NCBI GenBank assembly: GCA_013407085.1
Contig: JACCGJ010016197.1
Span: forward strand, 17,089 to 81,088
Direction of reading: 5' to 3'
From: Atriophallophorus winterbourni
Taxonomy: Eukaryota; Platyhelminthes; Trematoda; Plagiorchiida; Microphallidae
Length of the DNA stretch: 64,000 nt
Below are positions 1 to 59,584 of this stretch, piece by piece. Each line of letters begins with the position of its first letter. Positions within the stretch are counted from its first letter, which is position 1. Made by a program: the position numbers and the translations under genes. The notes under the pieces were generated by a model. The model did no database searches and was not told where the DNA came from. It was given only the letters and a program-made list of their open reading frames with translations.

Positions 1-660
1 CTCGTGTTCTGCTTTGGGACAAGTATATCGCGTGTGACTGCCTGGGATTTGAATGCTGTTATTCGTTGCGAATTGTGTTCCGGTTTATTGCGTTTAATAA
101 CCAGAGACGTACTTTGTTAGTGGTGAAATCTCCGTTGGATCAACCGCTACAAATCCAATCCACTGAAATCGATAAGTTACGCTGACGAAGCTGCTTTCAA
201 TTTGTCCATATTGAACCACGGAGCCAAGAAAGAAGCTATCTGACGTCGAAGAAAATAGCGATTGTAATCAACGCCTGCATGCTCAATGCCTTAGTGTAAA
301 ACAGTGAAATCTAGATCATCTACGTAATACCCAGAGATCCTTCTATTTAAGGAGCTGCGGTCGGAACGCGAATGAATCTTGAATAAACAGAATACCGAAT
401 GTTTAACTATTTTGTAATGTAGGTCACATTACTGCTACAGCGTTTAGTACATCGTTTGTGGAATGAAAAACGGACGTAGTTCAGATGATATTTACTATTT
501 GACGAATTTTATCTGGAAGAACATCATTTATTTTGCAGTAAATACTTTACAAAATTGTTTGTAAAAAACATGATATTTGTCGACATGTATCCCACTAGGA
601 TAAAAGAAGTCGCTATGTACAGCTCACAATTAGAGCATGTCAGTTATCAATATTTATAAG
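1..660 (+). repeat. Partial copy of long dispersed repeat (direct duplicate of 1720-2379)
   Basis: Bases 1-660 match 1720-2379 at a constant offset of 1,719 bp with only scattered substitutions and no indel that I can see, so this is a direct duplication cut by the window edge. A more diverged inverted copy lies at about 51.30-51.74 kb. On the minus strand it holds the relic of a short signal-peptide-like exon (ATG at 280) that is closed by a TAG after 14 codons. Confidence 0.85.
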
Positions 661-1556
661 ATTAATGACTGAAGAATTACTGGTAGACGTTTGTGGTTTT
701 CAGCACCCATAATCAAAGAAAAACATTACTATCCGCTATTTGCTTATTTACACCAAATATAAACTCGGCGAACTGTTTTTTTCAATTGTGTAACAAATAC
801 AGGCTTTCATTTTGTAATGCCATGAGAATAACATGAAGTCCTGGAATATAAAATTAATCCATTGTTTAAATTCATCACGCCGACGTAGAAAAACGATTAT
901 CTTTGGAACGCACTAATGCTTCTCCTCACCTATTGGTGAGGGGAGTTTTTCTGTTGCATTCCAGATTACACTCATACCAGAAGATATTTGTGAAAATATT
1001 GTTTGAAGTGGTGGACGCTCTCCTGTGGCATACCACCGAAATAAATCTGGACGCTCGATTGGCTCGTTAGCCACATACAGTCCTGTGCAAACTGAACTGA
1101 ACTGAACTGAATAAGGGACAATTCCGCACTTTCAAGGTCAACCACACAGAAATTGATAACTATTGCCCTGATTAGAAAGGAGTAACAAGGCGAATGGGGT
1201 TTTCGATGCGACATCAAACTTCGTATATAATTTTTCTAGCATAACAACGAACCAAACGACAATACGATCCATCTGTTTATTTGCAGATATAATCCCAAAA
1301 ACGGAAAAATATGGCTTCGTCCCTCATAGCAATTTTAAGGTGACAAGGCATTTCATTAACTAAAATTATGCACAGAAATAAACGGTTTACTGAAGCGAGA
1401 TGAAGAGAATATTTCAAAGCTTACCGTACAAGTGTGCTGCAACATATTTGAAAGAATATTGTTGGGAATCATTTGAAAATGTTCTTAAAACTGCGAGATT
1501 ATATATCCATATTTTGTTAGTATGCTTGCTAATATGTTAAATCGCCTATAATATAT
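661..1556 (+). repeat. Left part of long repeat, colinear with inverted copy at about 52.0-53.2 kb
   Basis: Segments at about 680-760, 1120-1310 and 1340-1460 match, in order, the reverse complement of about 53.15-53.05, 52.79-52.60 and 52.14-51.92 kb. Inside is a short pentanucleotide run, (aactg)n, near 1088-1111, and a hairpin near 910-945 with a ctcctcacc/ggtgagg stem followed by a T run. No gene is recognised. The site near 1302-1312 is the unoccupied version of a hammerhead-element insertion present in the other copy. Confidence 0.7.
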
Positions 1557-3189
1557 ATGACTAAGCTTTCAGCTAAGCTTTTATACATTTTGCTAATAGC
1601 AATCTATGGTGTTTTCATTATTGTATATTTTATTACAATAACCCTGCATATTTCATTATTGTTTTGTTTCAATGATACATGTAAATATGTACACATTCGA
1701 ATATACGATTCACGCCGCGCTCGTGTTCTGCTTTGGGACAAGTATATCGCGTGTGATTGCCTGGGATTTGTATGCTGTTATTCGTTGCGAATTGTGTTCC
1801 GGTTTATTGCGTTCAATAACCAGAGACGTACTTTGTTAGTGGTGAAATCTCCGTTGGATCAACCGCTACAAATCCAATCCACTGAAATCGATAAGTTACG
1901 CTGACGAAGCTGCTTTCAATTTGTCCATATTGAACCACGGAGTCAAGAAAGGAGCTATCTGACGTCGAAGAAAATAGCGATTGTAATCAGCGCCTGCATG
2001 CTCAATGCCTTAGTGTAAAACAGTGAAATCTAGATCATCTACGTAATACCCAGAGATCCTTCTATTTTAGGAGCTGCGGTCGGAACGCGAATGTATCTTG
2101 AATAAACAGAATACCGAATGTTTAACTATTTTGTAATGTAGGTCACATTACTGCTACAGTGTTTAGTACATCGTTTGTTGAATGAAAAACGGACGTAGTT
2201 CAGATGATATTTACTATTTGACGAATTTTATCTGGAAGAACATCATTTATTTTGCAGTAAATACTTTACAAAATTGTTTGTAAAAAACATGATATTTCTC
2301 GACATGTATCCCACTAGGATAAAAGAAGTCGCTATGTACAGCTCACAATTAGAGCATGTCAGTTATCAATAATTATAGGCTGATGGTGTGTGTATTGCAT
2401 ATTTGCCTGCAAATAAAGAACAATAATAACCGTTTGGGTTCAACAATCAACGATCAAGTAGTGCTTATCGTTGTGAAAATTTTCCGATAGAATATGCTCA
2501 TGTAAAATTTAATGGGTTATGAAATCATCATATACTTATGTGGTACATCCGCTGTCAATGCTTTAACGAAATGAGGTTCACGATAGCTAAATATGTAATC
2601 CAAAAGTCAGTCATTTGAGATTTGGTCGTAGCTTGCTAGCAAAGTGCAAACAGCTGAGTATCGAATGTGTCATCAGTATTCTATTAGAGATTCACTACAG
2701 AGAATGCAAGCAGTTACTTTAAAATGCGTTGCGAGTAAAAGTTAGAATTTGATTTTAATGCATTCTTCATCGATCGTATTCAATCGCAGTTTTTAATTCG
2801 CAATGCACTGTTCCTCCATAAATAGTGACCAAAGTATGTTTGAAAAACCGAATGCCATTTACTTACTTACTAAAAGTTGACATATGAAACAAAAATATAG
2901 TGTATAGAAATATGTTGACGTGTGAGAATTTAAATATAACAAAACAATCTTGCATTTTAATGACAACTGTTGCGAAAGCCATTAATTGATTTAGACAGAT
3001 TCTCTGCGTTCCAAAACGATTATTCAATGATCTTCCATTAACTTGACCAACATCTAAATCGCTAGAACCCATTCATGCAAAATCACGTAAACATGATTTT
3101 GGTCTAATGCATGATATTGTTCATGTTTCATTTTTTTATGCATCGCACGGCCGCAGCTGTTTTGCGGATACGCTCCCAATGCAATATAT
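1557..3189 (+). repeat. Long dispersed repeat, middle part (inverted copy at about 49.2-51.9 kb)
   Basis: This stretch is colinear with the reverse complement of about 51.9-49.2 kb: 1720-2370 with 51.74-51.30, 2373-2860 with 51.28-50.79, 2863-2950 with 50.78-50.69, and 2950-3150 with 49.43-49.21. About 1.26 kb present in the other copy (49.43-50.69 kb) is absent here. An ORF at 1557-1904 begins with a hydrophobic run, but I see no conservation supporting it. I consider it chance. Confidence 0.75.
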
Positions 3190-3835
3190 GCTCTAATGGC
3201 GCACATCTCATATAGCCTCTGACAACAAAGTCAGCTTCTGGGGTCCACGCATGGCATTGTGTGACCCGGCTAAACTGCTTCTAATGACAGGAGAAAGGGT
3301 GGAGGCAACTGAGTGGTGCCTTTAAACTAGCTTGCTCCGGGCAGCTGGAGCTCGTAAGACCATGATATCTGTCCACCTAGTGGAATAAAAACACTTATTT
3401 CAAACCTCCAGAGCCTTGTGGCTAAATCCAAACATGGAAGAGTTTTCAGGAGTCAACCTCAAGAAACAATCCGTTGTCGGAGTACCGTTAGGCAGTCCGA
3501 AGTTGTATACAACTTTGTCATGACAACTCCTGAAACGGCAACGTTTCCCAAACGTATCAGCACAAGTGTTCTTTTGGATCCGTGGGTGCTGTGGCGAGGT
3601 ACCACTTGCTGCATGGGCAACAGCAAGTTATATATAATGAACTGCTCTGTCGTACATCTCAACGTACCATTCCGCTCCTATGAAAGCAGTAGATACCAGT
3701 TAAAAAATGTAGCTCGACTGGCTTACAGGACAGCGCCTGAGGATGCTTTTTACGGCAGGAGAGATTTTCAGGTTTCGTTGGAGACTGCATCATTCCGCAT
3801 CAGCGAAATGAATTACTAAACAATAAAGGTTATTT
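3190..3835 (-). repeat. Repeat family C, inverted copy
   Basis: A repeat of about 650 bp found four times in the window: here on the minus strand, and on the plus strand at 48516-49200, at 24114-24775 (B1) and at 33569-34235 (B2). Shared landmarks are the cagtcgagccatag block, the tacgttyggacaacgatg block and an aggcagtgg block. ORFs overlapping it (3418-3819 and its reverse) are not conserved as protein between copies. It is non-coding as far as I can tell and its element class is unknown. Confidence 0.75.
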
Positions 3836-6335: not shown

Positions 6336-6446
6336 TCAAAGCTTACTGAAATATTGTGGTGCTCACATCCCCATCCCTAACACACCACTACCGGTTCCGG
6401 GCTGTTTTCCATCGTCAGGTGGAGACAGTAAGATCAAAGCTTACTG
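6336..6446 (-). mobile_element. Solo hammerhead-ribozyme insertion with 13-bp target duplication
   Basis: An 85-bp insert (6349-6433) is flanked by the perfect direct repeat tcaaagcttactg at 6336-6348 and 6434-6446. Read on the minus strand, the insert is little more than a hammerhead motif plus a tail homologous to the hammerhead units at 52.4 kb (GTCTCCACCTGACGA, ACCGGTAGTG, GGGATGGGGATGTGAGCA). A 13-bp repeat bracketing a repeat-family insert implies a staggered-cut integration. The mechanism is inferred as retrotransposition of a short ribozyme RNA. Confidence 0.75.
6382..6425 (-). ncRNA. Degenerate type I hammerhead ribozyme
   Basis: Minus strand shows CUGACGA (canonical CUGANGA), a UGG/CC-type stem II with an AAAACA loop, then GGAA in place of GAAA, then a CCGG palindromic stem III with essentially no loop. 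Stem I is CCAC/GUGG. The change in the GAAA box probably lowers or abolishes activity. The tiny stem III is typical of animal retrotransposon-associated hammerheads. Confidence 0.6.
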
Positions 6447-8402
6447 CTTCCATTTGCACGCTGAGCAGACATTAGGCTATAGGCCATTAGGTATAGTGTT
6501 GGGAGAGTTTTTATTCGACACATTGCATCATTGTTCATTCAATTTAGATAATGCAAATAGCTTGACTCTAATTTTGTATTAGATCCTTGCATCTAGACAT
6601 AACATTTACTCACTACTTAAGCCGATAAAAACCACCATGATGTAATTACATCTTTTAACAGAAACCATAACATTCAAATTAGGGTCTTTTTACATTTGTA
6701 TCAGTAATTTTATTTACTCTTAGAGTATAATTTGGAAATCGGTCAAGCATTTACTGGGCATAGTTTAATGCCCGATAAATGTTTATGCTGGGATTTCGAG
6801 ACATGTCGTTAGTATAGCACCATCAGCAGTGAAAGAATGTGTTCTGGTTGTATCCTTTCAATGTGCGGTTGCGCAACTATTTATACTTGAATAATGTAGT
6901 CATTTAGATTAGGAACACTTCATTTCAGCTGACAATTTTTCAAATGCTAGGAGCTGTTGGACATACGTCACTGCATGAGAAAGATGATCTCCATTTTAGG
7001 CTGACGATTTAACCTCATTTGCGTCTTCATCCACAAGTTTCGACCTCTGAGATTGTGTAAACTAATCGAGCTAACCGTATCTGATATTGGCTTACAAGTT
7101 CGTACGATTCATGCGAAATAACGTTAAATACCTAGATTCGGATGTGAAGCTCAGGGACACGACAGATAAGATATCCAAGTAACTATTATCTTCACATTAT
7201 TGAGGTGGGAAATAGATTATGCCTGACTTGGTGAAAACTTCTGAGTTTAATAGAGGATTAACACGTTTTATCTTATCGTTTTAGAGCCTACGTCATAATG
7301 AGTATAGAAATCGAAGATCGGATAACATTCACAGTGCTTAGTCTCAATTCAAATAACTTATTACACAAAACAAAACCGAGTGATCGGGTGTCAGCAGACT
7401 GTGACATTTTGTGTTCGATATACGGCTGCATAGATTTACCGTCGCTGTTAATTCTTGTTAAATGATATGAATTAAAATACTTCATTTAATAATCCTAAAA
7501 AGCGATTCTAAAACATACCCAGCTTCTTTTCCAACACTTCTAAATCTGTAGATGAAAAATCGGTTAGTCGTCAGATTTAATTGAAATCATTTTAGACATT
7601 TTCTTTTTCTAACTTCTTTAAATCAAAGCCTTTTTGTTTAAAACTTAAATGAGTTAGCAATCGTTTTGGTATTGTGAAACGTTGTGGATTAACATGTCGT
7701 CGTATGATGTTTATCCTTTGTCTACAAGGGCAACGCGATCTACGCTGGCTGTGTTCTGTTTATTCAAAGTTAGAACGTTTGTATTCCAAACGATCTACTC
7801 CGTAGAGAGTTCAATTTAGTAAGACGAACATTCGTAGTTGCGCTATAAATATGTTTGCAAAGAAAAATGAAAGCACCGAACCATCGACTTGGGAGGAAAT
7901 TGCATTTGATCACTCATATCAGAGGCACAATGTGAATGCTCATGTTCATCCTTGGGAATAGCAGATACGCTTTTTGGCCGATGAGCTTAGAGCATCTAAG
8001 AATACTACTGCCTAACGCTATAATCGTTGTGGGATAGATTGATTCTATCAAATCGAGTTTTCTAGTTATTTAAAACACTTTGATGCATGAGATAATTGCA
8101 TGCCTGTGTTGTACATCCATCGTAGACATCGGTCGAAATAGGTCATGAGCACGGATAATAGGTAGAAGTGAATGAGATGTTCGCCTAAACATTAGGTATA
8201 ACCGGGATATATGAATACAATGTGGTCTTGAGGTAAACGTGACGCTGAGTACACCGTGGTGTAGAAGAGAATCACTGGCAGTCGACATGATGTCTCCACT
8301 TTGGTATAGTTGTTAGTGGTTGCTCTACAATGAAGCAAGTTTTATTTGTTTTTCAACATGCTTCAAAAGACAAAATCAAGATTTTGAATTGTTCACATTT
8401 AC
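6447..8402. other. No recognised gene
   Basis: About 2 kb of AT-rich sequence. The short reading frames here (for example 7288-7485 and 8070-8288, both minus) have no recognisable motif or splice context, and I see no repeat shared with the rest of the window. Confidence 0.5.
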
Positions 8403-8443
8403 ACATTACAACCGGTTTTCGGCTGTATGCTGTCCTCAGGAGC
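8403..8443 (-). ncRNA. Decayed hammerhead motif
   Basis: On the minus strand, CUGAGGA (fits CUGANGA) is followed by an AUACA-like loop, GAAAACCGG and GUUGUAAUGUG. Order and spacing match the other hammerheads in the window, but stem II pairs poorly and stem III carries an extra A. Probably an old family member. It overlaps the plus-strand reading frames 8320-8604 and 8330-8587, which are therefore unlikely to be genes. Confidence 0.4.
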
Positions 8444-8835
8444 CGAAATCAAGTAGCTTCTGGGACTATAAGCAACCCGAAAACTGGTCAGATGAAAGAA
8501 TTGGAAAGTTTTATCTTCCATTTACGCGTTCATCAGAGATTGTATCTTGCTCAAATTTCATTATTCATCGGATGTATAGAGATATAATTTACAGTTCAAA
8601 ATAACTTGCACTCATTTAACATTTTGATAAGCAGCCTAATCCTTCGGAAATATATCACATCCAGAACTTACAAATTTGTCTATAATTTGCGATTGTTACG
8701 CGAAAATTAAAAAAGCTAATACTCGAACAAAGGTGGTATAATAAACATTTTGACAAAAATTATATGTTCAAGTTTTTCTAGTTAATCAAAATAACATTGA
8801 CATGCTATGGGCTTACATATTAAACAGCAACTTAC

Positions 8836-9154: not shown

Positions 9155-9480
9155 ATGACCAATGTTGTGTTGCTCACATCCTTACACCAGAACCCACAAC
9201 TCTATTTGAGGACGGCAAACAGCCAGGCACTGTTCGTGGTGTGTAAGTGGTCATTCATTAGCACCTCGATCGCTTGACAACAAATAACTGTGATTCTGCA
9301 TTTGAACATCGTTTCCGTTGTATCAACCGGAAGTCTAAATTTACCACTCCTCCACTGCTACGAGTCTCACCGAAGCCTAACTTAATGTCTCCACCTCATG
9401 ACGGCAAACAGCCAGACAACTTAAGTGGTGTGTAAGTGGTATGTGAGCAAAACTTACATAGGTCTGACGCGTAATGTTGA
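9155..9480 (+). mobile_element. Decayed dimeric hammerhead-family element
   Basis: Same architecture as the element at 52.14-52.59 kb. A fold-back start (gaccaatgttgtgttgctcacatcc) is followed by gaggacggcaaacagcc (from 9208). A second unit with ctccacctcatgacggcaaacagcc lies about 189 bp later (9400), and the element ends in a gtatgtgagcaaaac segment. The second core reads CUCAUGA instead of CUGANGA, and GAAA is GACA, so neither ribozyme looks active. No clear target-site duplication was found. Confidence 0.6.
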
Positions 9481-24784: not shown

Positions 24785-24965
24785 AAGTGCTTTACCTACA
24801 ATCATTTTGTGATTAAGTGTGTAAACATGGTGGTTCGTTGTACGGACCCTATTTAACAGTGACATTCAACTACAACTTTGTTAACTTTTTATTTTCTGTT
24901 ACAAGGCTCATTAAACGCAATCTCACTGCCTCCATCTGATGACGACAACAAAATCGTAAGTTCGT
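24785..24965 (+). repeat. Partial hammerhead-family unit in B1
   Basis: Homologous to 52265-52450: a gtgattaagtgtg block, the hairpin-forming ggttcgttgtacg block, aggctcattaaacgcaatc and ctccatctgatgacgac. The CUGAUGA box is intact, but the downstream GAAA box and the ACCGGU stem III are lost (cgtaag instead), so the ribozyme is incomplete. Confidence 0.6.
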
Positions 24966-33568: not shown

Positions 33569-35595
33569 TCACAAACATACAGTGTGCTTGTTGGTTGATT
33601 CCTAATCCCCATGCACTCAAAGAGGATAGCAATCCATGGAGGGACTTCACATTTTTGACTGGGGGTTGTTCAGCTTGATGCTCGCTGTATCCTTTTAATG
33701 AGACCTAACATTCTCTCCCACCTTCGGAAGCAGCCCTAGGATATGAGATCTACGCCAGTCGAGCCATAGCTTTCAACCGTATCTGATGGATCCCCTGTTA
33801 TTATCCTGAGAACCGGAACTGCGTGTCCTCTCCATTGGTGCGTTTATATGTAGGACAGTGTTTTATTCAATATGGAGAACCTCTTATGCCCAGGCAGCAA
33901 GTTCTTCATCTCCACCGCACCACCGGATCCAAAGGAACAGTTAGGCTGATACGTTCGGACAACGATGCTGTCGTATTATTTGTCAGGAAGAAGTTGATTA
34001 CAAATTCGGTCTGCCTAGCGGGACTTGGCCTTCAACGTTTTCTTCGAGCTTGAGTGCAGAAATATTTCCATGATCGTATGTATTCCTAAGGCAGTGGAAG
34101 TTTGATGTGAGGGTTTTCATTCCCTGGGTGGGCCGCCTTCATGGAATTGCAAACTCAACCTGCCCGAAGCATGCTGAATTTGAGACGTCAGTGAGCCGCT
34201 ATTTCACTTTCTCTTGTCAGTAGAAGCAGGTGGACAAAAACGAATTAAGTGCTTTACCTACAATCATTTTGTGATTAAGTGTGTAAACATGGTGGTTCGT
34301 TGAACGGACCCTATTCAAAAGTGACATTCAACTACAACTTTGTTAACTTTTCATTTTCTGTTACAAGGCTCATTGAACGCAATCTCACTGCCTCCATCTG
34401 ATGACGCCAACAAAATCGTAAGTTCGTCAAACTATAATTTTTTGATTCAATCGAATGGCACTAAATATGTTTAAGGTAGCCATCTTTTTCAATTTTAATT
34501 TTGTGATCCAATTTATCGCATTCGGAGCTACGCCCTTTGAGAGGAATCAACATTTTAAAATAACTAAAATCTACTTTAAGTCAATCGAACTAAAATCCTG
34601 CATTCATGCGTGCTTGATCCAGATTTCAAGTCATGAATCAGATGCATTATGAAGCTTCATAGTTGATTTTATCATAAGTCAGGAAGTAGGTAAACCCAAT
34701 GTTGAGTTACATTAGTAAAAAATGCAATTTTAAATCTGTGAAAGAACTAGGATTTACCTTTTAGCAAAACTGTCAAAGAACATAGCATGGTGATTTCTAA
34801 TTAAGATTATTAATGAGCGAGGATGCTGGTACATAGAAATTAACGTTGTTAGATAAGTGTAAAAAGCGAATAATCATTGTTAAAACAATGATATTTGCAT
34901 CTAGGTACTAATTGGTGTCACCGCGAGTCATGGCAGCATTTGTGCTATAAATTATATCGAAATGTAATACACAGGGTAAATAATTTATGACCAATAGGAT
35001 GGCACCGGTTCCAGCATCACCAGTTAGTTGAAATCTCCGCCGGTTATTAAAAACGTTAGTCAGTCATACCGACTCATCTATTAAAATGTGTATGGCATCG
35101 CAGGATGCATATCCTTGGCATTGATATGTGATAACGGAGGTGCATTTAATTCGGATTCGAGCGCATTACTTACGTACATTGCATTACAAATCTCTAGAAG
35201 CTCACTGGATGCAAACGCTAGTTTGACAGATCTGACAATTTTGATCGTTCAGCATGTTATTTGCGGTGACAATTTGTTTGAAAATGAACTACTTTGTAGT
35301 AATCGGAAAATTATATAAATATAAATATGGATTGGCAATAATTCTGATTATATCTCAAATATGCAGTAAACAGAGTACTTTTAAACTAAAGCTTTTAGAA
35401 TGAAATATATTAGGCCAAATTGTGATGCGTCGTTGTGATAATGACACATTTGTAGTCATTTAAAATGGCAGATTCGGTATGGCACAGAATAATGAATTTG
35501 ATCCCAAAAATAAAGTCAAGTAATAAAGTAAACCATATCAATATATACATATATACATATATATATTGATAGGGTTTACTTTATTACTTGACTAT
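33569..35595 (+). repeat. Block B2: second copy of B1
   Basis: Same order and same left breakpoint as B1, with a constant 9,461-bp offset (for example frames 24994 and 34455, 25627 and 35088). A partial hammerhead-family unit lies at about 34245-34425. The right end differs: an inverted repeat replaces the simple (AT)n run. Confidence 0.85.
35514..35593. repeat. Near-perfect 80-bp palindrome at B2 right edge
   Basis: The left arm 35514-35547 (starting agtcaagtaataaagtaaac) and right arm 35562-35593 (ending tttactttattacttgact) are reverse complements apart from about one mismatch, around an AT-rich loop. The right arm matches the B1 version (ccctatcaat) rather than B2's own left arm (ccatatcaat). 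Confidence 0.85.
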
Positions 35596-37210: not shown

Positions 37211-39123
37211 AGCCACAAGCGCGTACTAAATTTCAATCTAATGAGAAGCCATCAATGTAACAGATAGCAGCTTTCAAATCGTGCAAAGGGTACCTGTTAT
37301 TTATATTGAACAGTATAACATTTTGAATGACGAGTCTCTCTGACAAATTTATGTGCAAATTGATTCAACGAACTTGGCAGTTGATTGAAGTATATCCTTG
37401 TCGAGTTGTGAATTATCATCCAAAAGGACAGTCGATGGTTGCAAGGTATTGCAAACCTGAGTAACAAATTAGTTATTCTTCCGAATTTCGTTGAATTCGT
37501 ATTCCAACTTCCGTAGATTATTTAGAATAACGGAAGTGATTTGAACTCAATTAACGGAACAGTACTTAATTTTAAAAATTTCTAGCAGATTAAATAGCTT
37601 CAAAATCGTTGTTTTTATTGGGCATGATTAAAATAGTATAACATGGAATATTACCAGAGATTGTGAGATATAATATAAACATTTTTGGTGAGTATGACAT
37701 ATTTAGGTATCACATAGCGTTTTCAAACACTAAAGATTATTATAATTATTAATATATTCTGTGTTTATATGTAAAGCTGTATGCTTTGCTGTCCATCAAA
37801 GTTGTACTAAATCGAACATGTGGATGGGATGTTAAAGCAGTTTTATAGTAAAAACGCCGTCAAATTCACAATTTGATTGCTTTGTTCCGAGCTATCCGTA
37901 AAAGTATTTAACCGCAATGATGGGTTGCTTGAAGGCACTCGTAGTTGACGTCAACAAGACACAAGGTGAAGTCTGCACAAGTTTGCTACCTCGCGTAGGG
38001 CTGAAATTCGTTGCAATTCATCGAGAAATACCTTGGTATCCAGTATGTGACACGCGAAATTTTGTTTCCTAACAAGACAAGCTCATCACGCTGATACTCA
38101 TCCAAAGCGATAAGAGAATCTGATAATTCAAAATGCTTTACATGGGGTTGATATTCAGGATAGACTCATTTATTTTGAACAAAACAAAACAAAACGAAAA
38201 TAATAGAAAAATCCACAACGCAGAACATCACGCATTTTCGATAAACATTTGCCTTTTAGCTTCAGTGCTTTACGTCACATTCATTGATTTTTCTTTTTCG
38301 AAATTACAGTATTTTATTGTATAATGACATATCGCGTAGTGATTCTCTCGAAGGAAGTTGTAAATACTGTTTATCTTTATTTTTATTGAACGTAAACTTC
38401 CGCCGCGGAAGTGACCTTGAATATGTATTCGTGTTTGTACATACTTCAATTTTATTGTACAAACATGTCACAATGATTTATCATGATTAGCATGCATTGG
38501 ATAACCAAGAATAAAATTATTTGCTATTTATGTACTTATTGAGAGTTGGCCCATTAGGAATTATGCTTTCTCTACTTTCCCTTGAGTCTCACGAAATAAC
38601 TGACCGGTTTTCCGTGAACTTTCAGCGTGCGCAAAGGCAATATGTTATTTCAAATAGCTGTGTACCCGCACTCTAAAGCGAGTTTGTCTGTATGCAATGC
38701 TTAGCACATTGCTGAGCACTTTGTAAGAAACAATTCAGCAGTGCTGATACCTTCTCTCCACGAATGATCCTGTCGTTAGACACCTGAATATATGCAATGA
38801 TCACGGACATTTTCAGAGCACAAAGTAGATATTACTCCATTTAAGTACACTGGAAAACAGTCGTTGTAGTGAAAATTCATAATAAAAAGGAACTTATTGC
38901 ACGGAAATATTGAACGAAACACATTCAGGTTAGAAAGCGCTTTTCACCCAAAGAAAGTTCGAGATCACATTTTCGGGTAAGAGCACGATAAACCCTACAT
39001 CGAAGGCAAGCGTCAGACTTATACAATCTCATCAAGAGAATGGGGCACGTTCAGCACTATTCCGTCGGTAGTATATCTCGATTTTTGAGCATGTGCTCAG
39101 ACATACGCTAAAACAAATAAATC
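37211..39123. other. No recognised gene
   Basis: About 1.9 kb of AT-rich sequence; short frames such as 38133-38324 have no recognisable motif. Confidence 0.45.
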
Positions 39124-39144
39124 TGCATGCTGTTCTATCACGCA

Positions 39145-39190
39145 CATCCCACGACCGGTTTCGTGCTGTTTTCACTCATCAGGTAGGGAC
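39145..39190 (-). ncRNA. Hammerhead ribozyme, monomer 1 (conserved core)
   Basis: The minus strand contains CUGAUGA, a GUG/CAC stem II with loop, GAAA, a minimal palindromic stem III ACC/GGU without a loop, and the cleavage triplet GUC followed by GUGG (cut predicted between 39153 and 39152). Stem I pairs CCUAC with GUGGG (one wobble). All invariant core residues are present. With such a small stem III, cleavage probably works best as a tandem or dimeric RNA. Confidence 0.75.
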
Positions 39191-39370
39191 AGCAAGATCA
39201 AGAACCGCATGCGCTTGAAGCAGTGGGTGATCAAGGAGCGCCTGTATGTTACGGTTACATAAGACTGGTACGAACAACCTGTTCAATCACATGTGTCCAA
39301 ACATGTTTAAAGGGGTTAAACCGATAAACATGAACCAAAATATTCATTTGCATGTCTATCCGTCACACCC

Positions 39371-39414
39371 ACCCCACGAATGGTTTCGTGCTGTTTGCAC
39401 TCATCAGGTAGGGA
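39371..39414 (-). ncRNA. Hammerhead ribozyme, monomer 2
   Basis: CUGAUGA, a perfect 4-bp stem II GUGC/GCAC with AAACA loop, and GAAA are intact, but stem III reads ACCAUU instead of ACCGGU. The cleavage triplet is therefore UUC and stem III is weakened. Confidence 0.65.
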
Positions 39415-39564
39415 CAGTAAGATCAGGATACGCATGCGCTTGTATGTCAATGTTGGATAAGTATGGTACGACCAACCTTTTCAATCACATGTGTCGAAAC
39501 ACGTGTTTAATTGGGTTAAACACGTAACAATGAAAAAAATTCATTTGCATGATTTTCGTCACAT

Positions 39565-39611
39565 TCGCCCCACGAACAGTTTCGTGCTTTTTGCAATCAT
39601 CAGGTAGGGAC
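39565..39611 (-). ncRNA. Hammerhead ribozyme, monomer 3
   Basis: CUGAUGA and GAAA intact. The first stem II pair is lost (U opposite C), and stem III reads ACUGUU. Likely weak. Confidence 0.6.
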
Positions 39612-39796
39612 AGTAAGATCAGGAACCGCATGCGCTTGAAGCAGTGGGGGAATGGTAATCAAGGAGCGTTTGTATGCCACTGTTGGATGAGGCTGGTACC
39701 ACCATCCTGTTCAATCACATGTTTCCAAACTCGTTTAATGGGGTTAAACCGATAAACATGAACCAAAATATTCATTAGCAAGTCTATCCGTCACAC

Positions 39797-39841
39797 CCAC
39801 TCCACGAATGGTTTCCTGCTGTTTGCACTCATCAGGTAGGG
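39797..39841 (-). ncRNA. Hammerhead ribozyme, monomer 4
   Basis: CUGAUGA intact, GAAA intact. The stem II outer pair is broken (GUGC/GCAG) and stem III is ACCAUU, as in monomer 2. Confidence 0.6.
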
Positions 39842-39978
39842 ACAGTAAGATCAGGATATGCATGCGCTTGTATGTCACTGTTGGATAAGTATGGCACGAC
39901 CAAACGTTTCAATCACATGTGTCGAAACACATGTTTAATGGGGTTAAACACGTAACTATGAAAAAATATCCATTTGCA

Positions 39979-39979
<1 letters not shown>

Positions 39980-40017
<38 letters not shown>
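39980..40017. repeat. (AT)n microsatellite abutting retrozyme array
   Basis: Uninterrupted AT dinucleotides immediately after the last monomer. Confidence 0.9.
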
Positions 40018-48515: not shown

Positions 48516-49200
48516 TTTCAGTTGATTTCTAATCTCCTAGCACCCAATAAGGCTGACGTCCGTCCAACTTGAATGGGCGGTAGCCCTCCGTTGCAACCTC
48601 AAAATCAATCCCACCGGCGAAAGCAGCCTCAGGCGTTAAGCTCTGCGCCAGTCGAGCCATAGGATTTATCCGGTAATTGCTGCTTCCATGGAAGGAAAAT
48701 AGAGTGTTGTCTTCATTGTGGTGTTGAGATGTATGCCAGGGCACTTCAATATGGAGAAATATCTGATGCTTGTGCGGCAAGTGTTATCTCTCATCGGCAC
48801 CACTGTAACCTAAGGAACATCTAAGTTGATACGTTTGGACAACGATGACGTCGCAGGAGTTAACTGGACGAAGTTAAATACAAATTCGGACTGCATAACG
48901 GGACTCCGTCTACGGATTTTTTTTGAGTTTGACTCCTGAAGCATTTTCCATGTTTGGATGCAGCCACAAGGCAGTGGGGATTTAGATAAGGGTTTATCTT
49001 CTCCTAGGTGAACCGCATCATAAACTTACGAGGTACACCTGCCAGAAGCAAGCTACTTTTGAGGCACCACGGAGCAGCCTTCGCCCTTTCTCCTGTCAGT
49101 AGAAGCAGATTTGCCCGGTCACACAGGATCACGCGTGCAGCCCAGAAGCTGGACTTGGTTGTCAGAAGCTATATGAGGCGCAAGCCATTAGAGTATTTTT
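48516..49200 (+). repeat. Repeat family C, direct copy after CR1 3' end
   Basis: Same family as 3190-3835 (inverted) and as the left parts of B1/B2; begins right after the CR1 tail (cagttgatttctaatctcctag). Unknown class. Confidence 0.75.
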
Positions 49201-51629
49201 GAGATTGGGAGCTTACCCCAAAAACCGCTTCGGTCGTGACATGCATGAAAAAATGAAACATGAACATCATAATGCATTATACTAAAACTAATTTAACTTG
49301 TTATTGCTTGAATTGGTTTTAGATATTGGCTATGTTATTGAAAGATAACGAAATAATCGCTTCTGTATGCAAAGGATCAGTCTAAATCAATTGATGGCTC
49401 TCGCCTCTGCCGTCATTAAAATACCGCACCTAAGTTCTCATGAAACGTTGTCACGAATCGTAAGCTGCGCAAATAACGCGTCTTCAGGTTCAACTCTGTG
49501 GCCCATGTTGACTAGCTGGGACAATTTTTGTGCAACAATTTTGGGTGATTTCCGTTTTGCGTCCCATGGTCAACCTACCGCGCACCATCGAATCAGATCA
49601 ACTGTTAACCAATCTTCAAATGGTTGTCTAATCTTCGAAAACGGTCCAGTTCTAAATTAGATATTTACTAGGGGCGTCGTCGTTTATACAAACAAGATTG
49701 GTCATGTCATATATTTTAGTTAAATTAAAAGGAACAGTCATAGTATGTCTGAATTGAAACTAAACAGGATATTGTTTTAAATTTAATGAACAGAATAAGA
49801 GGGAAATGTGAGGGCAATAAAGTTTTTCGATTACAAAAATCGTTGGATGCATTTTGATTTCTGTGAATAAAATGGAATAATGGTTTGTAATTTCTGGGAG
49901 GTGAGCATCATGAAAAATGACTTTGATAAGCGTCTTGAAAGCTTAGCCGGAAATCTGTTTGCGATTTTGTCATTTCTTAATCATCTAACTTTTAACAGAA
50001 CTAGTATTGGTGTCAAATTCAAAATCTATGTTACGGAATAATTTGAGAATTCTGTTCTTTCGATCCCCCTACTCTAAAGTCCATCAAATGTAATTTAACA
50101 TAGCAAGTAGCAGATTAATCGACCAATGGTCTACTTATAAATAACATCCCAGAATTTATCCAATGAAAAGTATGGATGTTGCTGCAATTCATTTTATATG
50201 ATTTTGCGCGAAAGAAAATATGCAACTGTGGCTTTCTTCAGGCGCAAAGGAAAAACACAAAAACTAAATTGAACAGGACTACTTCGCGGTTCGGTTTTAG
50301 GGTAGAATGCTGTTTGGGGGTTGGAATGGGATAATGATGTTTTGGCCTTCTTGGGTCGATGTCAACTATGTCGACCATCACAAGCACATTGTGGTTTCAT
50401 GCTCCACGACGGTTTGAATGATTCGGAGGAACGTTATCTCCGTCAGGGCTCACCGCCATAGGCAATACTCGGTCGTACGTACCAATTGCACTTTTCGTTC
50501 ACCATTTTGATAGCAGAATGAAAGAGGTAATGCAAAGCATAAAATTTATGCAAAATAGTAACACTTAGTGGTTTATAGATCACTCATTAATTGGTTCACG
50601 TTGTATAAAAATTCACGAGAGAAACAGCGCTCGTTTAAAAAAAATCGTTTCAAAATTCCTAATATATTCCCAAAAACTAATTTAGGTAATATTTTATTGT
50701 TTTGTTATTCATAAATTCTCACGCGTCATCATTTTATATACATTACACTTGTGTTTCATATGTTAACTTTTAGTAAGTAAATTGCAATCGGTTTTTTTCA
50801 ACATACTTCGGTCACGATTCACGAAAAAAAGCGCGTTCTGAATTGAAAACTACGATTTAATGCGATCGAGGAAGACGCAAACGCAAATTGTTACTTTTAC
50901 TCGCAACGCATTTTCATGTAACTGTACTCGCATTCTCTGTAGTGAATGTCCAATAGAATACTGATGACACATTTGATGCTTAGCTGCATGCATTTTGCCA
51001 AGATAAAGATGTAGACCAAAACTCACATAACTGGTATTTGGATTACAAATTTAGCCAACGAGAACCTCATTACGGTTAGCACTGACAGCGGGTGCATCAC
51101 ATAAGAATATGATGATTTAATAACCCATCAAATTTTACATGATAATACATGACATATTCTATCGGAAAATTTTGCACAGCTATACGCACCACTCGATCGT
51201 TTATTGAACCTCCCAAATGGTTTGATTGGTCTTTGTTTAGGAGATAAATGTATAATCCACACATCCTTAGCTTACAATTGATGGTTAACGCTATGTTCTC
51301 ATTGTGAGTTCTACAGAGCGACTCCTGTTTTCCTAGTGGGATCCATATCGAGAAATATCATGTATCGCCACCGCCGTTAAAACAAATGATGTCCTTTCAG
51401 TTAAAAGTCGTCATATTAAATATCATCTTAACTACGACCGCTTTTCCTTCTACGGACTTGTTGTAGTAAACTCTGAAGCGGTAATATGACCTACATTACA
51501 GAACACGTCTACATTCATTATTCTGTTTATTCAGGATACATTCAATTTCCAATCGTAGCTACTAAAATGGAAGGATCTTCGCATAGTACGTAGCTGATCA
51601 AGATTTCACAGTTGTATACTAAGGCATTG
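49201..51629 (-). repeat. Long dispersed repeat, inverted copy (with 1.26-kb extra segment)
   Basis: Colinear reverse complement of about 3150-1720. The segment 49430-50690 has no counterpart there and is either an insertion here or a deletion in the other copy; I recognise no protein or terminal repeats in it. Sequence identity is moderate, so the duplication is old. Confidence 0.7.
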
Positions 51630-51632
51630 AAC

Positions 51633-51692
51633 ATGCAGGCGGTGATCAGAATCGCAATTTTCTTCGCTGTCGGATTGCTCCTTTCTTGGCAG
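51633..51692 (+). CDS. Candidate signal-peptide exon in the long repeat (20 codons)
   Basis: The plus strand reads MQAVIRIAIFFAVGLLLSWQ and is followed immediately by GTAGTT, a possible splice donor. The two homologous copies (minus strand from ATG at 280 and at about 1999) read MQALITIAIFFDVR and then TAG, so only this copy is open. Either this is a live first exon in a segment whose duplicates are pseudogenised, or the leader-like peptide is chance in a repeat. No other exons identified. Confidence 0.35.
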
Positions 51693-52125
51693 GTAGTTCA
51701 ATGGGGACAAATTGAGAGCACCTTCGTCCTCGTAAACTATTGATTTCAGTATCCCGCTGAGAATATGGATTGCTTATAGCAAAATTTATAAAATTTTAGC
51801 TGAAATCTCAAACATATATCATATAGGTTTGTTAACATATTATCAAGAATTTTAACAAAATATAAATATATAATCTCGCGTTTTTACACATTTTTTATAC
51901 GTGTTTACAAAAAAATTCTTTCAAATATGTTGCAGGAATCGCGAAGTGTAAGTTATGAAATATTCTGTCTATCTAGCTACAGTTCCACTGCACAATTTAT
52001 CTATATTTTTACAGTTTTCATTTATTACCTGACAATAATCGGGCAAAAGTAAACCGTTTATTTCGAGCCATATTTTTAGTTAATGAGATTCCCGGTCAAG
52101 TTTGTATTGCCTCGCGGGACAGAGC
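51693..52125 (-). repeat. Long dispersed repeat, inverted copy, continuing
   Basis: Matches the reverse complement of about 1720-1310 (for example cctgcaacatatttgaaag and the cattaactaaaa/aaataaacggttt blocks). Confidence 0.65.
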
Positions 52126-52171
52126 AAGATTATTTTTCAAAGTAATGTGTTGCTCACATCCCCATCCCTTG

Positions 52172-52216
52172 CACACCACTACCGGAGGACGGCAAACAGC
52201 CAAAAACCGGTAGTGG
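52172..52216 (+). ncRNA. Decayed hammerhead, first unit
   Basis: AGGACGA replaces CUGANGA and AAAAA replaces GAAA. The ACCGGUAGUGG segment is intact and pairs with the upstream CCACUACCGG, so it folds as a long hairpin rather than a hammerhead. Confidence 0.5.
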
Positions 52217-52417
52217 AGTGTAAGATATGGGGATGTGAGCAACACATTACTTTGGTCATCCATAAGCGCCATGAGTGTTTTGACCAATAATCACTTTGTG
52301 ATTCTGTGTCTGAAAATCGTGGTTCGTTGTACGAACCCTATATAACAGTGGCATACAAGCATAACTTTGTATACCACTTTATCACTGTTTCAAGGCTCAC
52401 TGAACCTGATCTAACTG

Positions 52418-52461
52418 TCTCCACCTGACGACGGCAAACAGCCAGAAACCGGTAGTGTTGT
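52418..52461 (+). ncRNA. Hammerhead ribozyme, second unit
   Basis: CUGACGA, stem II GGC/GCC with AAACA loop (outer pair C-A mismatched), GAAA, loop-less stem III ACC/GGU, then triplet GUA followed by GUG pairing with CAC of stem I. Core boxes are intact; GUA is an allowed cleavage triplet. The weak stem II closing pair may reduce activity. Confidence 0.65.
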
Positions 52462-52599
52462 GTAAGGGATGGGGATGTGAGCAACACATTACTTTGGTCA
52501 TCCATAAGCGTCTTGAGTGCTTTGACCAAGAATCACTTTGTGATTCTGTGTCTGAAAATCGTGGTTCGTTGAACGAACCCTATATAAAGATTATTTTTC

Positions 52600-53170
52600 G
52601 TTTGTAAGGTTATATCGGCAAAAAACGGATTAGTCCTATTGTCGTACAGTTGTCCGCTATGCTCGAAAAATTGTAGACGAAATTTGATTATGCATCGAAA
52701 ATCCCGTTCGCATTGTTACTCCCTTCAATCCGACCAATAGATATTACTCTCTGTCTGGTCGACCTTGAAAGTGCGAAATTGGCCCTTATGATAATCGTGT
52801 TTCTACGTTTGCGGGATAAAGCCAAACGACGGTTAGATTGTATATTCCAGGACGTCATATCGATCCCATGGCATTCCAAAATAAAAGCATGCATTTGTTA
52901 CGCGATTGAAAAGACAGTTCGCCAAGTTTATATGAATCGAAATCAAAACCGTAAGTTAATACCCGTGAAGATGAAAAAGAAACGTTTCTATCAACTTGAC
53001 CTCTGATTGGGTTAATTGCGTTGTTATTTAAGGTAATTGAGTCCATCATAGCTGACAATTTGCAACACCAATTTGATAGAAATAAACAAATAGCGGAAGG
53101 GAATGGTTTTCTTTGAATGTGGAGGCTGAGGAATACAAGCGTATACCAGTAATTATTTATTATTGAAACA
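52600..53170 (-). repeat. Long dispersed repeat, inverted copy, distal end
   Basis: Reverse complement of about 1300-660: cgatgcataatcaaatttcg with 1207-1225, accttgaaagtgcgaaattg with about 1120-1145, and cagtaattatttattattg with about 670-690. Confidence 0.7.
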
Positions 53171-54979: not shown

Positions 54980-55171
54980 ATTGTTTGCATCCAAAATGCA
55001 CATTTGCATGCATTTCCATCAGACACCCCCCCACGACACGTTACGTGCTGTTTGCACTCATCTGGTTGGAATTGTAAATGCATGCAAATGAGCATTTTAC
55101 AGGTGATTGAAAAGGTTGTTCTTAATACCCTTATCCAACAGAGGCATACAAGCACTAATTGTTTGCATCCA
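54980..55171 (-). mobile_element. Hammerhead-family insertion with 14-bp target duplication
   Basis: The insert 54994-55157 (164 bp) is flanked by perfect direct repeats attgtttgcatcca (54980-54993 and 55158-55171). It contains a retrozyme-family hammerhead on the minus strand bracketed by a 15-bp inverted repeat (catttgcatgcattt at 55001-55015 and its complement at 55076-55090). It continues with the monomer body (gattgaaaaggttgttc ... tatccaacagaggcataca) in the opposite orientation to the ribozyme. The same fold-back logic is seen at 52.1 kb. Confidence 0.75.
55027..55069 (-). ncRNA. Degenerate hammerhead ribozyme
   Basis: CAGAUGA replaces CUGAUGA and GUAA replaces GAAA. Stem II GUGC/GCAC with AAACA loop is perfect; the GUC triplet followed by GUGGGG is retained. 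Two core substitutions predict inactivity. Confidence 0.6.
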
Positions 55172-58507: not shown

Positions 58508-59584
58508 CACTTACTCATACGCCCACGACCCAGATTTCCTCTGATAGGCATCCATGGTGACCTAACTGGTATAATCAAAGTTCCTAGTTATCGAACTTAC
58601 TCGAAAAAAGGCTTAAGCCTTAAAGCAGTTTCGAGTAATATGAGTCGAGACAGATATGAGGAGATAAAGCGCTATCTTCACTTTAATGATAACATTTTGC
58701 AGAAGGAAGATGGCAACAAAGATGACAAACTATTCAAAATTCGATCAATTATGGATTCCATCAAATCGAACTGTCAGAAACTTCCACAAGAAGAACATCA
58801 AGCCGTGGATGAACAAATCATTCCTACCAAAGCGCATATCTCCTTAAAACAATACAATCCAAGAAAGTCACATAAATGGGGGTATAAAGTCATATCTAGA
58901 GCAGGATCGAGTGGCCTTATTTGTGACTTCGAGATTTATACGGGGAAGGATCGGAAGAAGAAAGATGTCGAAGTTGGAATGTCATCAACCTACGCACTTC
59001 GGCTTGCTGAAGGTATACCCAAGCACAAGAACTACAAGTTATTTTATGATAACTGGTTCTTTTCATTGGGCTTATCAAGGAAGCTACAGGAATCTGGTAT
59101 TCTCAATGTGTCTACCGTCAGTGTGAACAGGCTGAAAAGATGTATACTGGAGAATGATAAACTGCTACAAAAAGATGGGAGAGGAAGTTACGACTTCAGA
59201 GTTGAAATCAATAGTAATATAATAGCTGTGAAGTGGTTTGACAACAAACCAATTCACCTACTTTTTTTCATATGCGGGAATAGAACCGGCTGATACAGTG
59301 ATGAGATGGGATCGAAAACAGAACTCATATGTAGAAGTTGGTAGACCTTTCGTTGTAAAAGAATATAGCAAATTCATGGGGGGAGTCGATTTGTGCAATA
59401 TGTTGATCGAACATTATCGTCCCGATTTCAAGTCGAAGAAATGGTACATGAGGATTTTTTCTGTGTAAAAGGATTGACTAAAGTGAGGTGTCAAAAATGC
59501 GATGTAGCTCTGTGTCTGACCTGCGACAAAACATGTCATAGAGGCTATCACACAAAAGTACATTGCAGTGCCATAAGGAAATGA
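58508..59584 (+). pseudogene. piggyBac-type transposase, frameshifted and internally deleted
   Basis: Readable from about 58547 (GDLTGIIKVPSYRTYSKKG, then Met at 58640, MSRDRYEEIKRYLHFND), the N-terminal part of the catalytic region; the usual acidic N terminus is missing or disrupted by a TGA at 58505. The first catalytic Asp lies in AVDEQ (residue 57 from Met 58640) and the second in FYDNWF (residue 137). A frameshift falls in the T run near 59263, after WFDNKPIHLL. The next frame carries EYSKFMGGVDLCN with the third Asp at 59388-59390, while the Asp expected three residues later is Asn. After KWYMRIF about 100 residues normally present are absent, and a Cys-rich tail follows in the first frame (VRCQKCDVALCLTCDKTCHRGYH). 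Not functional. Confidence 0.85.

Follow-up and report, generated by a model that had tools for sequence, protein, structure and literature searches.

The 52-kb insert and its empty site

The window, that is, the whole stretch of 64,000 nucleotides of Atriophallophorus winterbourni DNA that was analysed, was found to contain a 448-bp insert at 52139-52586, bounded on both sides by perfect 13-bp direct repeats of AAGATTATTTTTC on the + strand, as had been claimed in an earlier sequence-only reading of this DNA. The 13-mer was present at two places on the + strand of the window, 52126-52138 and 52587-52599. The insert was built from a 242-bp unit and contained a 47-bp inverted arm followed by a 5′-truncated unit and one complete unit. 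The features of the locus were as follows.

52126-52138, + strand: 13-bp target duplication (TSD), left copy, AAGATTATTTTTC
52139-52185, - strand: inverted arm, 47 bp, with its outer end corresponding to 52495, 41 nt past the putative hammerhead cleavage site (putative reverse transcriptase (RT) start site A)
52184-52422, + strand: first direct unit, in which the arm junction cuts off the hammerhead at about core position 5/6; it would be cleaved after 52212
52411-52474, + strand: complete type I hammerhead whose minimal stem III (ACC/GGU) has no loop; it would be cleaved after 52454
52423-52586, + strand: second direct unit, ending 132 nt past the cleavage site (site B)
52587-52599, + strand: right copy of the 13-bp target duplication; GTTTGT comes next
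1303-1314, - strand: paralogous empty site with a single target copy, from the alignment of the joined flanks

The arm was 95.7% identical to the reverse complement of 52449-52495, the two unit copies differed at 12 of 165 positions, and a CCGG/ACCGGT palindrome was found at the arm junction. The description of the hammerhead element as dimeric was retained for the two direct units and was amended for the rest, one hammerhead being complete and the other truncated, in addition to the 47-bp inverted arm. The first core bases of the upstream hammerhead probably derive from the arm, and the CUGA-to-CGGA change in that hammerhead would be only apparent, because the arm junction falls at about core position 5/6. 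The fold of the whole 448-bp insert gave z = -11.4, with a long hairpin at the left side. A microRNA was considered for this hairpin and was rejected, as the microRNA families remained below their gathering scores and the hairpin was the inverted arm itself. No polymerase III A or B box was found in the insert by a simple pattern.

Joined with one target copy, the flanks of the insert were found to match the reverse complement of 1480-1100, the insert itself being missing there. The single target in that stretch is at about 1303-1314 and shows an internal gap of 2 bp. The paralogue of the flanks, near 1.1-1.6 kb, was present in the opposite orientation and contained one target copy, in agreement with the inverted, single-target paralogue that had been placed near 1302-1312. 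With three stretches left out of the count (39.0-40.1 kb, 52.0-52.65 kb and 6.3-6.5 kb), 13-mers were found to recur in the window in 0 of 677,303 position pairs at a spacing of 461±5 and in 0 of 681,296 at a spacing of 98±5.

A large element was found twice in the window in opposite orientation, at 162-3774 and 48595-52789, with 72-80% identity. The pair contained no GIY-YIG or Penelope RT match, and one of the two copies hosts the 52-kb insertion.

Other copies in the window

Further copies of the family were found in the window.

6336-6446, - strand: B6, the second insert with a TSD (13/13): 85 bp at 6349-6433, with a single hammerhead; end 40 nt past the cleavage site
8368-8453, - strand: C8, the third insert with a TSD (11/13): 60 bp at 8381-8440, with a single hammerhead; end 29 nt past the cleavage site
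9195-9464, + strand: older dimeric copy (C9) with an inverted left arm and degenerate cores
24786-24948, + strand: partial unit (D24) in a duplicated segment, with a paralogue at 34248-34410 (D34)
39111-39981, - strand: tandem array of four hammerheads of a second subfamily (E39)
54980-55171, - strand: F55, the fourth insert with a TSD: 164 bp at 54994-55157, with an inverted arm and a single hammerhead; end 41 nt past the cleavage site

The TSD of F55 was 14/14, consisting of 13 nucleotides and 1 ambiguous nucleotide. A TSD was looked for at C9, D24/D34 and E39, and none was found. The unit homology of array E39 stopped about 42 nt past the last cleavage site, and the inverted arm of C9 extended to lower coordinates. 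The GC content was 0.43 for the 242-bp unit and 0.506 for the short B6 insert. The pattern search with at most 3 mismatches detected 11 hammerheads in the window versus 0 in 100 shuffles, and a covariance model from 8 window hammerheads also detected the copy at 55014-55078, outside its training set (E 2.3e-6). All four TSD-bounded inserts of the window were found to read through the cleavage site, so the copied RNA would have been uncleaved at that site, circular or religated.

Genome-wide copies and target duplications

The 537,331,230-base assembly of the host was searched. The 449-bp query gave at least 249 genome matches, many of them in tandem arrays, from 4973 first-look candidates, and the 85-bp copy gave 1015 first-look candidates, of which 40 were scored and all 40 matched. 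A third search yielded 890 first-look candidates, again with 40 of them scored, as for the 449-bp query. The copies ranged in size from 60 bp up to long arrays of the 242-bp unit. Seventy loci (L003-L032 and L045-L084) yielded 53 complete element segments, which were collapsed by shared flanks into 42 groups; L005 was grouped with L060, as each lies next to GIY-YIG sequence of one kind.

Thirteen of these 42 independent copies were found to contain 13-bp end repeats with at least 11 matches (six with 13/13, four with 12/13 and three with 11/13). In the mispaired control, in which left ends were combined with right ends of other groups, 8 of 1722 combinations reached 11/13, one of them 13/13. 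Copies without a TSD at 11/13 or better do exist, 29 of 42, yet duplicated targets in 13/42 stand against 8/1722 mispaired, and together with the empty site they bear out the proposal that the insert had moved as a discrete element. Sixteen TSD-bounded inserts were listed, namely the 13 groups, L005 and the window copies C8 and F55. Their duplicated target sequences were all different, so the flanking repeats are not a part of the element.

The exact repeat runs were 13 nt in the 52-kb insert (A52), B6, L060 and L048, 14 nt in F55, and 15 nt in L066 and L063. The extra 1-2 nt of the longer runs were common to the upstream flank and the 3′ end of the element, as microhomology would give. An inverted partial copy together with a TSD was present in A52, F55, L048, L063 and L066. 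A replicate with the second subfamily contained 14 loci, of which 4 reached 12/13 versus 6 of 182 mispaired; L089/L090 were the F55 locus again and the repeat of L093 was unit sequence (both judged by eye), and without these, 1 of 11 reached 12/13 and three more reached 11/13. This replicate is weak on its own.

Satellite arrays spread by recombination or array breakage, with TSD-like repeats arising by coincidence, would account for the long tandem arrays and for the 29 copies without a TSD. The empty site, the TSD count against its control and the empty relatives of the GIY-YIG loci described below contradict this for the TSD-bounded copies, and as a general account it is very improbable; it may hold for the expansion of arrays.

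Putative hammerhead ribozyme

In the hammerhead fold, which was assigned by hand, an internal loop interrupts stem I, stem II bears an AAACA loop, and stem III, ACC/GGU, is loopless. A pattern allowing 6 mismatches collected 235 distinct hammerheads from the 70 loci. The catalytic core was intact in 183 of the 235, and the stem III of ACC/GGU without loop was present in 201. The closing pair 10.1/11.1 of stem II, which is C.A in the hammerhead at 52411-52474, was C.A in 131/235 and U.U in 80/235 (211/235 together), the core being mostly kept. The core, the 10.1/11.1 pair, ACC/GGU and H17 were found all together in 9 of the 235 putative hammerheads.

An alignment of 8 hammerheads contained 76.9% paired cells versus 24-51% for slid versions. 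The covariation score of these 8 was matched by 126 of 500 shuffles, that is, no covariation above shuffles was found. Rfam gave no match of any kind over the window at the gathering score, and no hammerhead over 51900-52800 at E up to 10. The hammerhead pattern had 0 matches in viral contigs. Two matches in genome contigs, both bacterial, were rejected; they contained the core only (23.5 and 19.2 bits), about 0.5 were expected by estimate with 20 fixed bases, and they are likely due to chance.

Ends, arms and target of the insertions

Unit positions were counted from the first base past the hammerhead cleavage site. The right (3′) ends, read from the edges of BLAST matches and accurate to within a few bases, were found at unit position 37-45 in 18 of 42 groups, with the main cluster at about 41, followed by a broader second group at positions 130-178 in 14 of 42. 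The outer ends of the inverted left arms were found at position 37-45 in 7 of 11 and elsewhere in 4, and the direct left (5′) ends were scattered over the unit, with 0 of 31 at position 37-45. Forty of the 70 loci behind these counts were retrieved with a query that stops at position 40, by which copies with earlier ends were excluded; in the other 30 loci, right ends fell at 37-45 in 4 of 11 and arm ends in 2 of 5. Both outer ends were at 41-42 in L063 (TSD 13/13; position 42) and in L046 (no TSD found).

Clustered 3′ ends together with free 5′ ends are the pattern left by target-primed reverse transcription. The same ends contradict a DNA transposon or MITE with terminal inverted repeats. 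That reading would draw on the TSDs and on the long left-hand hairpin of the 52-kb insert. The two ends of this insert are not the hairpin arms, B6 and C8 are without an inverted repeat, and hardly any credence is given to a DNA transposon.

The inverted arms, too, were probably primed from DNA, because their outer ends obey the rule of the 3′ ends and not that of the 5′ ends. Fold-back self-priming or template switching on antisense RNA, as proposed for the Penelope elements of rotifers, was weighed as another origin of the arms. It is in keeping with the palindrome at the arm junction of 52139-52185, with the argument for self-priming from such palindromes in the part of PMC3846280 consulted, and with the 4 of 11 arm ends away from the start site. 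Arbitrary outer ends would be expected from it, against the 7 of 11 found at position 37-45 like the direct 3′ ends, and self-priming of the arms is considered rather doubtful.

The nucleotides just outside the TSDs of the 16 inserts were rich in T, with T at 42 of 64 positions downstream (p 2e-9) and at 39 of 64 in the upstream complement (p 1.6e-7), against a background of 0.294. The sequence GTTTGT was found directly past the TSD in A52, B6 and L060. Because this T-richness is mirrored on both strands, it suggests a dimeric, symmetric nuclease with cuts 13 nt apart on the two strands.

SINEs are mobilised by LINEs through TPRT. The same retroelement might have been moved by a CR1-like LINE instead of a Penelope-like element. 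LINEs of this kind ('CR1-like' being a label by eye) were abundant in the window, where RVT_1 matched 5 and Exo_endo_phos_2 matched 2 of 131 ORFs; the best named relative of one RT frame was from Paragonimus westermani, with 58% identity, and metagenomic proteins scored higher. The matches of the element in the window at E≤1e-3 were confined to the hammerhead copies listed above, so no 3′ end common to it and a LINE copy was seen in the window. No A-tail was found in the 12-nt 3′ ends of the 16 TSD-bounded inserts, and a constant, symmetric 13-bp cut and arms primed from one start on either strand are reminiscent of the Penelope enzyme as described in the available part of PMC11167929. Movement by a LINE is therefore regarded as unlikely.

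Proposed link to Penelope-like elements in the genome

The GIY-YIG domain (PF01541) was found in at least 17 genome matches among the best candidates, all above the cut-off. In one locus, L043, a GIY-YIG frame comes after a reverse transcriptase frame, with RVT_1 below the Pfam cut-off; from the order of the domains and a motif we take it to be Penelope-like.

Among the 70 hammerhead loci, GIY-YIG sequence was found to adjoin two independent ones, L005 and L060; L024 was the same locus as L005, and L007 was a paralogue of L005 with flanks 97.8% identical. The insertions in L005 and L060 were at most 4 nt from the same point 3′ of the GIY-YIG sequence, in opposite orientations and with different TSDs. 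The relatives L044 and L033, which are 99.5% identical to each other and perhaps one locus, were empty at this point. The GIY-YIG frame was open to the stop in L005 and broken in L060 and in L044/L033. The suggested lead to retrozymes and Penelope-like elements holds up with the GIY-YIG matches in the genome and with these two insertions at one site 3′ of GIY-YIG sequence.

A search for relatives bearing a reverse transcriptase had been proposed in the sequence-only reading. Of the GIY-YIG sequences found, one had an RT frame, and no intact Penelope-like element was seen to carry this hammerhead. In 12 GIY-YIG loci nothing matched the hammerhead model (R1) at E≤1, in L085, L086, L043 and L037 the matches were weak (best 9.7 bits, E 0.99), and no Penelope-like copy with its own hammerhead of this family was identified in the loci looked at. 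In the window, no Penelope frame or GIY-YIG was found in the 131/149 ORFs scanned, and tblastn with four GIY-YIG/RT queries gave nothing. A hammerhead copy at L087:1233-1337 lay some 2 kb to the 5′ side of the L060 GIY-YIG sequence, in the inverse orientation, with no duplication by eye; it may be either an inverted pseudo-LTR of that GIY-YIG element or another insertion.

The arrays of L005 and L007 were arranged differently, mostly direct in the former and with a long inverted part in the latter, despite the nearly identical flanks. Array rearrangement, haplotypes or an assembly error may each account for the difference. Head-to-head GIY-YIG frames were found at L085:927-2676 and L086:484-2957, with inverted repeats of 200-570 nt at 98-99%, and the frames beside them resembled a Gypsy-type RT by eye.

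Comparison with known systems

Known systems were compared on the basis of the available portions of the cited papers. Platyhelminths are named in PMC7229834 among the metazoan hosts of retrozymes, with Penelope-like elements as no more than 'a strong candidate' for their mover. The metazoan non-LTR retrozymes described there and in PMC7761336 are alike in their non-coding tandem units of 150-450 bp (242 bp here) with a type I hammerhead, in their range from dimers to arrays (short single copies to arrays here), in a GC content below 50% (0.43 here), in a TSD of more than 4 bp (13 bp in 13/42 here) and in the lack of an LTR. A stable helix III is possible in most invertebrate hammerheads of the retrozyme kind and weak in many cases according to the text seen of PMC7761336; unlike most of these, the present stem III was ACC/GGU without loop. 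A further mark of metazoan retrozymes is their expression as circular RNA.

The Penelope-like elements, as far as covered by PMC3846280, PMC11167929 and PMC7761336 in part, share a minimal hammerhead lacking helix III nucleotides, a TSD, partial tandems, a partial copy inverted head to head on the 5′ flank, an internal RT start downstream of the hammerhead, an AT-rich target and the use of both strands. In the passages seen of PMC11167929, the anole Penelope protein acts on both DNA strands, cutting and extending each, with a preference for AT-rich DNA; it initiates at two internal positions of the RNA, alike on the two strands, and hammerhead mutants leave insertion by this protein unaffected. 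Penelope elements of the rotifer Adineta vaga are described, in the part of PMC3846280 consulted, with inverted pseudo-LTRs, palindromes at the inverted junction, an empty site and TSDs of 8-10 bp, some copies being without any; the TSD here, unlike theirs, was 13 bp. Unlike Penelope-like elements, the 448-bp insert contained no RT/GIY-YIG ORF.

The Sm-alpha and W elements of Schistosoma (PMC8490949, in part) are alike by description, being flatworm satellite-like repeats with type I hammerheads, and one W element has a possible TSD. Plant LTR retrozymes, as given in excerpts of PMC7761336 and PMC7229834, are alike as hammerhead-bearing non-autonomous retroelements; they contain type III hammerheads, LTRs, PBS/PPT and a 4-bp TSD, compared with type I hammerheads, a 13-bp TSD and no LTR seen here.

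The anatomy is that of a metazoan retrozyme with the minimal hammerhead of Penelope-like elements, a kind already known. Membership among Penelope elements fails on the missing gene, and from the typical invertebrate retrozymes the element differs in helix III, agreeing with them in the other tested features. For hammerhead elements, neither a 13-bp stagger nor a symmetric target nor arms ending where RT starts were found in the portions seen of PMC7229834, PMC11167929, PMC8490949, PMC3846280, PMC7761336, PMC6155905 and PMC12910113.

Proposed mechanism

The family is probably a non-autonomous, non-coding hammerhead retroelement of the retrozyme kind, inserted in trans by a Penelope-like reverse transcriptase/GIY-YIG endonuclease. 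A symmetric endonuclease would cut T-rich DNA on both strands, 13 nt apart, and the DNA 3′ ends would prime the copying of hammerhead RNA, mostly from an internal position about 41 nt past the cleavage site. Priming by one 3′ end would give a direct 5′-truncated copy; priming by both would give two cDNAs that meet, leaving a head-to-head inverted arm as at 52139-52185, followed by gap filling that would produce the 13-bp duplication. Insertion, TSD, clustered 3′ ends, variable 5′ ends and a symmetric target are seen in the DNA itself, and we infer the acting enzyme and the priming from both strands. Against the Penelope reading count the 29/42 copies without a TSD, the 14/42 right ends at 130-178, the 4/11 arm ends elsewhere, the C8 end at 29 nt, the 1 of 11 second-subfamily loci at 12/13, the shorter TSDs of the rotifer elements, and the failure to find a Penelope frame in the window or an intact Penelope-like element with this hammerhead in the loci looked at.

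It is about an even chance that the retrozymes here parasitise Penelope-like elements and that their scars record Penelope insertion in vivo, with a symmetric dimeric endonuclease, a constant 13-nt stagger, both 3′ ends priming at the same internal RNA start, and Penelope 3′ junctions as a preferred landing site. If true, the priming on both strands would account for the inverted pseudo-LTRs by which Penelope elements have been puzzling. The copies would then provide in vivo footprints for the internal start and the use of both strands, which are known in vitro from one anole protein. The mover of animal retrozymes becomes directly testable in this family, which has at least 249 genome matches, a 13-bp stagger, a symmetric target and an RT start that is preferred over others. 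Dispersed 'solo' minimal hammerheads may likewise have arisen as short insertions with a TSD, of which the 85-bp insert B6 (6349-6433) is an example.

Other mobile DNA in the window

The segment 15839-24092 was found to contain LINE-like DNA in tandem duplication with a period of 3454 bp and 98-99% identity, followed by more copies at about 94-95% to 33.2 kb. An open frame at 58508-59293 resembled by eye a piggyBac-type transposase, and DDE_Tnp_1_7 was found to match 2 of the 131 window ORFs.
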